The position numbers and the translations under genes were made by a program. The notes beneath the pieces are model-generated. The model was not told the origin of the DNA. It ran no database searches and saw only the letters and a list, made by a program, of their open reading frames with translations. Shown here one piece after another: positions 50,688 through 53,386 of a DNA stretch of 64,000 nucleotides; within the stretch, counting starts at the first letter, position 1, and each line of letters begins with the position of its first letter. The stretch comes from an uncultured Bacteroidota bacterium (GTDB lineage: Bacteria > Bacteroidota > Bacteroidia > Chitinophagales > Chitinophagaceae), in the NCBI GenBank assembly GCA_903839875.1, contig CAIMDZ010000018.1, forward strand, positions 1 to 64,000, written 5' to 3'.

Positions 50688-51026
50688 TTATCGGGTGTTT
50701 AGTAAGGCCTGCACCTCTGTTTTCAAAACAGGTAAATGTTCAGTGCATATCTTCCATATCGTAGCATCACTTAGAAGATCATAATTGTGAATCAGTATAT
50801 GCCTGAAAGAAATTATTCTCTTCTTATCTGTAATTGGTAAAGCCTGATCTAGTTTATCTGCTTTCCAAAGCGCTTCACCAACAATTGACAATCGTCTTTG
50901 AACACCATCCATAGTTAAAACGTCACTCTCAAACGCTTCATAAGTAGGGACATTTAAAAGATATGTTTCGATCAACGCTATTGACTTATCAATGTCTGTC
51001 AGTAATTTATTTATTTCACGACTCAT
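50688..51026 (-). CDS. HEPN-domain protein (DUF86-type toxin of HEPN/MNT pair)
   Basis: 112 aa, all helical. The HEPN RNase motif R-x4-H-x-Y is present as R75-H-I-L-I-H80-N-Y82. In HepT/MntA systems the HEPN protein is the toxin and the nucleotidyltransferase neutralises it by adding AMP to the motif's Tyr. The gene overlaps the nucleotidyltransferase gene by 11 nt. Confidence 0.88.
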   Translation of the reverse strand: MSREINKLLTDIDKSIALIETYLLNVPTYEAFESDVLTMDGVQRRLSIVGEALWKADKLDQALPITDKKRIISFRHILIHNYDLLSDATIWKICTEHLPVLKTEVQALLNTR

Positions 51027-51327
51027 AAATTATCTGCTTGCTTTCATTTATACTTTCAATAAAATAGGGATTCCACATTTTTTCTTCCGATACCAAGTCC
51101 ACTTTTCGTTGCAACAAGTCTTGCAATCCAAAAAGCAAATCAAAATAGTCATCAACAACGTCTAGTTCTTTATTCTCCTTGTCAAACCGGTACAAAAAAT
51201 CCACGTCGCTTTCGTCAGTAAACTTATTTTCTTTCGCTGCGCTTCCCACAAGGTAAAACGACTTTAAATGATGCTTTTTGCAAAGATCAAGTATAGCGTT
51301 CATGTTATCTTTAATAAGCGGTACCAT
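51016..51327 (-). CDS. MNT-type nucleotidyltransferase (antitoxin of HEPN/MNT pair)
   Basis: 103 aa minimal nucleotidyltransferase. The signature G-S (28-29) and D-x-D (41-43, in D-E-S-D-V-D-F) are intact, so enzymatic neutralisation (AMPylation of the HEPN partner) is plausible. It starts 3 nt after the miaB stop and overlaps the HEPN gene, so all three may be one transcript. Confidence 0.88.
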   Translation of the reverse strand: MVPLIKDNMNAILDLCKKHHLKSFYLVGSAAKENKFTDESDVDFLYRFDKENKELDVVDDYFDLLFGLQDLLQRKVDLVSEEKMWNPYFIESINESKQIIYES

Positions 51328-51330
51328 TTT

Positions 51331-53262
51331 CTATATCATTTCTCCTATTAACGTTGCCGAAGTAGCTCTAGTCACCCGTACATGCACATAATCACCTTTC
51401 TTCAGGTCTTTCCCGTTTTTTGGGAATATCACTACCTTATTTTGTGTATTCCTTCCGCTCCAGTCGTGCTCGCTTCTCTTGCTGGTCGCTTCTATCAGCA
51501 CTTCATAGCTCTTGCCAATGTCCTGCAGGTAGTTCTCCCTTGAAAGGTTGTTTTGCATTTTTATGATCTCTTCCAGCCTTCTTTTCTTTACATCATCAGG
51601 TATATCATCTGTATATCTGCGTTCGGCAAGCGTTCCGGGGCGTTCACTGTAGGAGAACATATAGGCCATATCAAAACGGCTGAGTTCCATTACTGATAAG
51701 GTATCCTTGTGGTCTTCTTCCGTTTCGGTACAAAAACCCGTTATTACATCCGTGCTCAGTCCGCATTCAGGTATGATCTCCCTTATCCTTTTTACTTTAC
51801 TCAGATACCACTCACGGGTATAGGTCCTATTCATTAATTGCAGGATCCGCGTATTGCCACTCTGCACCGGCAGATGAATGTATTTACAAATATTAGGGTA
51901 CCTAGCCATGGTATGCAGCACGTCATCCGTAATATCCTTAGGGTGCGAAGTACTGAATCTTACCCTAAGCAATGGTGAGATCGAAGCAACAAGGGATAAA
52001 AGATTTGCAAAGGTAACAGCCCCCTCCAAACCTCCCCCCGAAGGGGAGGCTTTCCCTTCATTTTTCTGATCAAACCAGAGTGGCTTATCAGGTTGCATTT
52101 TTAGCTTAGTTTCTATTTTCTCCAGGACATTCGGAAGATCACCAATTACAGAATCATTGCTAAACCTCAGCACTTCAAAACCCAACTTATTTAGTTGTAA
52201 AGTTCTTTCTGCATCACTTTCAGCATTTTGCGGTAACTGATGAATTCCGCCGTCTACTTCTATGATAAGGTGCTTTGACAAACACACGAAATCGGCAATG
52301 TACCTGGAAATTATATGCTGCCTGCGGAATTTAAACCCTTCCAGCTTTTTTCCCCGCAAGCTGTCCCACAAAATCGTTTCGGCTTTTGTAGGATTATTTT
52401 TATTTTTTTCTTGAAATTCTTTCAGCAATCCATACATAGTTTCATCACCGGTCATATATCCCCGTAGCGAATCCTCCGAATCAGATTTTAACAAAAGATT
52501 ACTTGGGTCTGCGACAACACCTCCCTCCCTTCGGGGGAGGGCTGGGGTGGGGCTATAGTAGTAATAACTATCTACGTTTTGACCCAATAATGTCACCTCA
52601 CGGAAACCTCTTGCAAAAAGGTCTTTGCATTCGTTTACTATACTCGCCGCATCCCTGCTCCTTTCTCTTCCTCTTGTAAATGGCACAACACAGAACGTAC
52701 ACATATTATTACAACCGCGCATAATGGTCACGAATGCAGTAACCCCGTTACTATCCAGCCTCACAGGCGAGATGTCGGCATAGGTCTCATCCCTGCTCAA
52801 TAGCACATTCACTGTCTTTTGTCCGCCTTCTGCTTCCGTTATCAATCCCGGCAGGCTACGGTAGGCATCAGGGCCTACTACTAAATCTACCAGTTTCTCT
52901 TCTTCCAGGAATTTTGCCTTCAGCCTTTCCGCCATACACCCCAAAACCCCGATCAGCATTCCGGACTTCTTATCCTTAATCTTCCTGAAAACCTGTAGCC
53001 TGTTCCGCACTGTTTGTTCGGCTTTCTCCCTTATGGAGCAGGTATTGAGTAATACCAGGTCGGCGTCTTCAAAATTCTTTGTAGCTCCAAAACCCTCTTC
53101 ATGTAAAATAGACGCCACTATCTCACTATCACTAAAATTCATCTGGCAGCCATAGCTTTCGATATAGAATTTTTTATGGAATTTGTTCGGATCGCCCTCA
53201 AAAGGAGCATAAGCTTCCCCCTGACGTGACTCTTCTACCACTTTTTGCAGTACCTCTGCCAT
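51331..53262 (-). CDS. miaB: tRNA-2-methylthio-N6-dimethylallyladenosine synthase MiaB with an in-frame DUF559 insertion
   Basis: 643 aa from the ATG at 53262 (a TTG at 53286 is less likely). It methylthiolates i6A37 in tRNAs. All iron-sulfur ligands are present: Cys39, Cys75 and Cys109 in the N-terminal domain and C-N-N-M-C-T-F-C (184-191) of the radical SAM domain. The C-terminal TRAM domain ends the protein. Usual MiaB is about 440-480 aa; here 179 codons (237-415) are inserted after [10 protein letters not shown], in the loop before V-T-F-A-N-L-L. They encode a nuclease-like domain. The frame stays open, so a functional enzyme with an extra domain is possible. Confidence 0.92.
52018..52554 (-). 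mobile_element. REP-like palindrome-bounded element carrying a DUF559 endonuclease domain, inserted inside miaB
   Basis: 537 bp, a multiple of three. Ends are imperfect inverted repeats of about 33-35 bp (52018-52050 and 52520-52554; both start AGCCCC when read inward), and each end folds into its own CCTCCC/GGGAGG hairpin. The interior encodes a DUF559 (Vsr-like, PD-(D/E)xK-related) domain: [26 protein letters not shown] and [10 protein letters not shown] with candidate catalytic acids. The termini are translated as [12 protein letters not shown] and [10 protein letters not shown]. No target duplication is visible. Confidence 0.8.
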
Positions 53263-53386
53263 AATTTCCGATTTCAATTCGTGCAAAGGTAAAGCTTTGT
53301 AATGTGAATATGCTTAAAGTATCCGTTAAAATGAAATGAATTGGGTTGGAACCCTATACCTAAAACTCAAATGCAGATGACCTTTC

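Follow-up and report, generated by a model that had tools for sequence, protein, structure and literature searches.

The window, a stretch of 64,000 nucleotides from the 5.29 Mb genome of an uncultured member of the Chitinophagaceae, contains a miaB gene that also encodes a DUF559 nuclease domain (Table 1). As first described from this single stretch, the insert is in frame: it spans exactly 179 codons of the gene without a stop. On the coding strand it starts with AGCCCC and finishes with GGGGCT. It adjoins the MiaB motif GQNVDS, which is invariant across the 36 rows of our alignment, and is directly followed by VTFANLL. The ends are inverted relative to each other, with 28-nt arms that are 79% complementary, and each can be read in the sequence as a hairpin of its own. 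The Fe-S cysteines of MiaB were proposed to have been retained, and six Cys columns of the MiaB part are likewise invariant in the 36-row alignment.

Table 1. Coordinates of the miaB fusion gene and of the parts of its insert, as positions in the window.
Feature	Position	Strand	Remarks
miaB-DUF559 fusion ORF	51331..53262	minus	643 aa plus stop
Whole REP-DUF559-REP element	52018..52554	minus	537 bp, codons 237-415, in frame; absent from most relatives
Palindromic repeat, coding 5' end	52515..52554	minus	Encodes a 13-residue peptide; resembles the dispersed genomic repeat family
Inverted palindromic repeat, coding 3' end	52018..52052	plus	Encodes an 11-residue peptide; outer limits drawn by eye
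DUF559 nuclease domain (predicted Vsr/EDxHD fold)	52102..52410	minus	Pfam match and modelled fold

The assignment of the insert to DUF559 was confirmed by Pfam, in which PF04480 matches with an E-value of 4e-33 and a score of 114 bits against a cut-off of 20.6. MTES_1575 also matches the insert, below its own cut-off, and no HUH/Y1 tyrosine transposase was found among the insert's Pfam matches. The fusion carries the UPF0004, Radical_SAM and TRAM domains beside DUF559. The DUF559 frame has neither a start nor a stop of its own, and the next MiaB match in the genome, among the matches listed, is only 30% identical. Given the open frame, and with no other miaB seen in the genome, we infer that translation of the host enzyme includes the insert as a domain. 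Directly downstream of miaB (50688-51327) lies a gene pair for a nucleotidyltransferase, which matches PADLOC PDC-S09, and a HepT-like ribonuclease; we take this pair to be a toxin-antitoxin system of the MntA-HepT type.

The nuclease part is poor in a model of the full fusion (mean pLDDT 69), and the insert was therefore modelled alone, giving a mean pLDDT of 80 with core blocks mostly at 88-97 and repeat-derived ends at about 53-69. This model resembles 3hrl, a putative endonuclease and solved DUF559 protein (Z 15.3, 43% identity over 94 residues), the homing endonuclease I-Bth0305I (Z 11.3; Foldseek E 2.5e-4) and Vsr (Z 9.8). As modelled, the insert nuclease has the Vsr/EDxHD catalytic fold. 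In an alignment of 88 DUF559 rows, E59, Q79, E99 and H105 are invariant and D88 and D101 are conserved at 90% or more. Across 14 pairs, pN/pS ranges from 0.09 to 0.38 in the nuclease and from 0.05 to 0.25 in the hosts, with dS near saturation, a pattern that indicates purifying selection on the nuclease.

The insert is a sporadic feature of MiaB. Of the 35 genomes sampled from the genus, 32 had a readable miaB loop; no comparable MiaB match was obtained from G005, G040 or G041. Its absence from most relatives is confirmed: the nuclease occupies the loop only in the window genome (G000) and in G001, two further genomes (G006, G009) carry repeat remnants without a nuclease in the same loop (peptides SPSPALPQGEGA and SPSAGGGLEGA), and in the remaining 28 the loop is short and variable. 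These relatives do not, then, share a palindrome-free domain conserved in all of their MiaB proteins. A third copy in MiaB was found in L326, a metagenome-assembled genome (MAG) labelled Bacteroides, and its nuclease groups with the other two MiaB nucleases (support 96). The host part of this MiaB is 80-84% identical to that of the window genus, and the Bacteroides label or the bin may be wrong.

Host proteins and the history of the nuclease

Copies of the same kind occupy many other genes. DUF559 is present in 25 of the 35 genus genomes, the window genome having only three such domains. In LeuRS, an essential enzyme, the nuclease lies in frame at a site in the editing domain (S1) in 11 of the 33 genes read, and in one other of the 33, that of G043, at a second site (S2b) before RETNTMPG. 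Repeat-derived peptides without a nuclease are found at S1 in six further genomes and at the second site in several LeuRS genes, and the frame remains open through these scars and through tandem copies. Since hosts such as LeuRS are essential and LeuRS was found at one place per genus genome, the fusions are presumably functional. The LeuRS stretch between LLNQGM and KMSKS varies strongly in length (about 80-140 aa) and in sequence from one species of the genus to another, and inspection by eye showed no repeat-derived peptide there.

DUF559 occurs in 222 of 395 sampled Bacteroidota genomes, with at least 36 matches in frames of over 800 aa among the matches listed. Pfam was run on the window's fusion and on 30 other fusions or long frames. 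The hosts identified in this way are LeuRS, MetH, HsdR, HsdM, RecG, UvrD-type helicases, a fused methylmalonyl-CoA mutase, Eco57I-type and type ISP enzymes, an N6/N4 methylase, HemF, HemE, HisF, RNase H and an M23 peptidase. The domain is N-terminal in HemF, HisF and RNase H, C-terminal in HemE and internal in most others. A scan of GTDB, from which the best 80 of at least 558 relatives were kept, adds CinA, MetRS, an IleRS-type synthetase, adenine deaminase, urocanase, a CoA transferase, an ALDH-MaoC protein and UDP-GlcNAc 2-epimerase; that all 80 loci lie in long host frames is a biased outcome, because in-frame copies served as queries. Including MiaB, about 24 host protein families contain the element in frame, nearly all of them in Bacteroidota. 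The urocanase fusion L344 comes from a MAG labelled Saccharibacteria, for which the label or the bin may be wrong.

By reading, many inserts adjoin conserved-looking motifs, among them VFTTRPDT in LeuRS, KGDVHDIGKN in MetH, VIWHTQGSGKS in HsdR and MTATPIPRT in RecG, all of which we take to be highly conserved motifs. In the HsdR of L218, a GIY-YIG nuclease domain lies at residues 251-316 between HSDR_N and DUF559; it may be another in-frame nuclease insert, of a different kind.

Nuclease trees, built on 121 columns, are weakly resolved but retain a signal of host site. Our first sample comprised 96 domains, 65 in long frames and 31 in short ones, a ratio that is not a frequency because many of the loci were chosen for long frames. 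The tree of these domains contains a 38-row clade (support 98) of long-frame copies only, with none of the 30 labelled free-standing copies. In a tree of 174 domains, from which two duplicates among the 80 GTDB domains were left out, the 19 multi-member host sites (hosts named by homology or motif reading) require 26 changes compared with 77 when shuffled. On these trees, nuclease lineages are tied to host sites. Divergence of nuclease and host is correlated in MetH (r 0.83), and inheritance at this host therefore looks mostly vertical.

At other hosts, copies at one site can be far more divergent than the proteins that carry them. Hosts and nucleases are 95% and 59% identical in the LeuRS pair G047/G023, 92% and 59% in G016/G005, 86% and 77% in G048/G016, and 75% and 38% in the HsdR pair L218/L240. 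For LeuRS pairs picked after the trees were seen, the nuclease data reject G016 with G005 (p-AU 0.016 for protein, 0.038 for DNA) and do not reject G023 with G047 (p-AU 0.14), and the host data reject G016 with G048 (p-AU 4e-5). In the MiaB host tree, G001 belongs to a clade of five genomes (100/96), of which the other four have loops that look native; G000 falls outside this clade, and a grouping of the two carriers is rejected (p-AU 0.005). Judged by these tests, the nuclease copies are host-incongruent at both LeuRS and MiaB. No co-conversion tract was seen around miaB, where identity also drops beside the loop in insert-free pairs.

The element has also been lost. Placing the full copies on the host tree of LeuRS requires seven changes, at least six of them forced by the starred branches. 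G042, sister of the full G022, retains a scar that is short and in frame and that fits a deletion between CCTCTCC copies; the scars represent lost copies of the element. Scars are undercounted on this tree, since G003 and G013 were labelled 'empty' even though their DNA holds short repeat-like remnants. Repeated independent arrivals at one site were suggested by the drawn tree and are not supported by AU tests, in which the one-group constraint was not rejected for LeuRS-S1 (p-AU 0.46), HsdR (0.44) or LeuRS-S2b (0.64).

These patterns bear on the possibility that the nuclease is a domesticated accessory domain, kept because it benefits the host enzyme or the cell, for example in defence or repair. 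Purifying selection close to that on the hosts, the co-divergence at MetH and the restriction-modification proteins among the hosts would all be expected of such a domain. We nevertheless regard domestication as unlikely, though it keeps some weight: the hosts are as unrelated as LeuRS, MiaB, HemF and urocanase, presence is sporadic with losses that leave scars, near-identical hosts hold very different nucleases, and PADLOC gave no match for the insert as a known defence gene.

The dispersed repeat family and its probable partner enzyme

The terminal repeats recur elsewhere in the window genome, as a REP-like family would require. CCCTCCCCNNNGGGGAGGG was found with up to two mismatches at 48 sites, compared with three for a reversed control, and CCCTCTCCNNNGGAGAGGG with up to one mismatch at 48 sites, compared with none for the control. 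The 48 sites are spread over many contigs. Seven copies from this genome, read by eye, give the consensus AGCCTCACCCCGGCCCTCTCCnnnGGAGAGGGAGGTGTTG; the GTAG tetranucleotide tag was not seen in these seven, nor the CGTC tag in the repeat copies read. The repeat is open in five of its six reading frames, a property that favors its survival in frame. The preliminary description suggested that the element may be selected to land in frame. The in-frame placement stands, but with 48 repeat sites on many contigs and only three DUF559 domains, it is better read as the product of a mostly open repeat and of selection against frame-breaking insertions.

In median count, the repeat is commoner in genomes that carry the nuclease. 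At least one CCCTCTCCNNNGGAGAGGG site is present in 31 of the 35 genus genomes, with a median of 21 sites in the 13 carriers of a LeuRS-S1 or MiaB nuclease and 5.5 in the 22 others (Mann-Whitney p 3e-4, or 0.002 after subtracting four sites per carrier, in a test that ignores relatedness). Some genomes are rich in the repeat without either nuclease, namely G003 with the highest count (56 sites) and G004 and G021 with 31 each. G043, which has its nuclease at S2b, has no CCCTCTCCNNNGGAGAGGG sites and 17 sites of its own repeat variant; of this variant, G000 and G008 have two sites each and the other 32 genomes none. By these counts, one repeat variant clearly follows one nuclease variant. A third repeat type, which flanks some short-frame nucleases, does not track them cleanly. 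The repeat AACCCCNACCCNNAAGGG has 12 sites in G018 and 21 in G023 (both strands), and is thus abundant in both even though G018 is without a DUF559 match and G023 has only the one in LeuRS.

Inverted ends are widespread among DUF559 copies. For 51 of 65 copies in frames of at least 300 aa and 23 of 30 in shorter frames, the inverted-end score is above that of all control windows from the same locus; one short-frame copy was left out for too little flank. The proportion is smaller in the second sample, in which only 40 of 77 loci exceed all controls (three of the 80 loci were left out). Stems of at least 8 were present in the left flank of 51% of 139 distinct long-frame copies, in the right flank of 39% and in both flanks of 31%; among 591 control stretches the share was 10%. 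In addition, DUF559 matches were found in 38 records of a plasmid collection, of which eight, from other phyla, were examined. In seven of these (two from Sphingomonas, the others from Sphingobium, Qipengyuania, Pseudanabaena, Deinococcus and Sinorhizobium), clear long inverted palindromes surround the gene, with scores of 26-104 against control maxima of 10-15.5; the Azospirillum copy is weak (14 against 11.5). Free-standing DUF559 genes flanked by repeats hence exist in other phyla. Two of them are located between genes of an operon, one between sufB and sufC in Sphingomonas (L375) and the other between paaD and paaZ in Deinococcus (L380).

RAYT transposases are thought to multiply other REPs. 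The repeats could be ordinary REPs moved by RAYT tyrosine transposases, with DUF559 a passenger between two of them, and Y1-type transposase matches are indeed present in 33 of the 35 genus genomes. The DUF559-end repeat was however found in none of 30 examined Y1 (RAYT-type) loci, whereas 17 of the 21 loci long enough for the comparison have other inverted repeats beside the Y1 gene (scores of at least 16.5, obtained with no control windows). Furthermore, G019 and G014 have Y1 genes and no CCCTCTCCNNNGGAGAGGG site, one repeat variant tracks one nuclease variant, and inverted palindromes likewise border the free-standing DUF559 genes found in other phyla. We consider a RAYT-driven origin quite unlikely; the DUF559 nuclease itself is probably the enzyme behind this RAYT-less repeat family. 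The repeats flanking the Y1 genes (L266-L294) are separate from those of DUF559, and several of them hold TGTAG.

A proposed homing-like element within host proteins

The suggestion made at the outset, that a REP-like family tied to a DUF559 nuclease lies in frame in tolerated loops and yields fusion proteins, fits the dispersed repeats and the roughly 24 in-frame host families. As nuclease lineages are tied to sites and depart from the host tree at LeuRS and MiaB, the behavior of the element is more like homing than random transposition. With a probability of roughly 0.64, we interpret it as a selfish, site-tied, homing-like element that is carried in frame as a domain of host proteins. The mobile element would consist of a DUF559 frame with an inverted palindromic repeat on each side, here lodged in a variable MiaB loop. 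The nuclease would cut the empty site, or else the palindromic ends, and the element would be copied in during repair. In this manner the element may spread within one site and rarely found a new one, while the nuclease, acting in trans, would also multiply solo repeats. Location in an essential gene would provide expression and make careless deletion costly, and loss would proceed by in-frame deletion. The case for cleavage, homing and repeat mobilization is indirect, drawing on the fold, on the incongruence and on how repeat and nuclease types partly pair.

It is very unlikely that the insert is instead removed before the protein functions, as an intein, an intron or a bypassed stretch. Self-splicing elements often carry homing nucleases, according to an excerpt of PMC3943268, but the fusion has no protein-splicing domain by Pfam at E 0.01, positions 51300-53300 have no Rfam match at gathering scores, and the LeuRS frame is open through scars and tandem copies. 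An assembly artefact or decaying pseudogene is a negligible prospect, for although draft assemblies make up many of the genomes, that of the window included, it is contradicted by independent genomes, by purifying selection and by in-frame copies in named isolates (Flavobacterium frigidimaris DSM 15937, Lutibacter flavus DSM 27993).

The homing-like element we propose shares features with several known systems. As in REP-RAYT systems (REPtrons, REPINs), an enzyme gene lies between inverted palindromes that have many further copies in the genome; the enzyme there is an HUH tyrosine transposase and here a nuclease of predicted Vsr fold, many copies here are in frame inside host genes, and the repeat copies read are without GTAG. 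To our knowledge, Rickettsia palindromic elements have no enzyme domain. In the accessible parts of their descriptions, they are about 150 bp long and CGTC-tagged (PMC3733652, PMC10969869) and, like intragenic REPs, form in-frame palindromes within genes of known proteins, including tRNA-related and repair genes (PMC3733652). The present element differs in its conserved nuclease domain, its length of 537 bp, the lack of CGTC in the copies read and the filling of the same loop in many species.

The likeness to EDxHD/Vsr-like homing endonucleases such as I-Bth0305I extends to the modelled fold, the site-tied lineages and, at two hosts, copies that are incongruent with the host. I-Bth0305I also carries long additional regions that bind DNA, as described in the accessible part of PMC3943268, whereas the insert is a small domain only. 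It also has no group I intron or intein around it and is bounded by REP-like palindromes; the window copy is neither intron- or intein-borne nor free-standing, and is kept as an in-frame protein domain. Inteins are similarly in frame, nuclease-carrying and close to conserved motifs of essential genes, but a self-splicing domain was not found here and the insert lies next to the motif, in a variable loop. The Caulobacter protein VsrA has a DUF559 domain in common with the insert and, in an excerpt of its description, is a stand-alone protein with a predicted role in mismatch repair (PMC12907096). A DUF559 gene has been placed in the EDxHD homing-endonuclease family, according to an excerpt of PMC9403480. 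We found no account of a REP-DUF559-REP element in the open-access papers searched, where none of those mentioning DUF559 describes one by its title and the start of its abstract.

Inserts of this kind recur in many bacterial genes, essential ones among them, and suggest a class of mobile DNA within host proteins that has drawn little notice. A bolder reading, which we hold tentatively and at somewhat less than even odds, is that these are a new class of selfish DNA, namely in-frame, non-splicing homing elements. In such elements DUF559 would be a permanent domain of essential enzymes, exchanged between species at the same loop, occasionally founding a new host site and multiplying RAYT-less REP-like repeats in trans. 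If this is correct, DUF559 would be the missing mobilizer of RAYT-less REP families across bacteria. More generally, our interpretation would assign a role to DUF559, a widespread nuclease family of unknown function, and a candidate enzyme to REP families that have no transposase. It would also mean that mobile DNA can live permanently within essential proteins without splicing, and would explain the oversized tRNA synthetases, methionine synthases and MiaB proteins of Bacteroidota.
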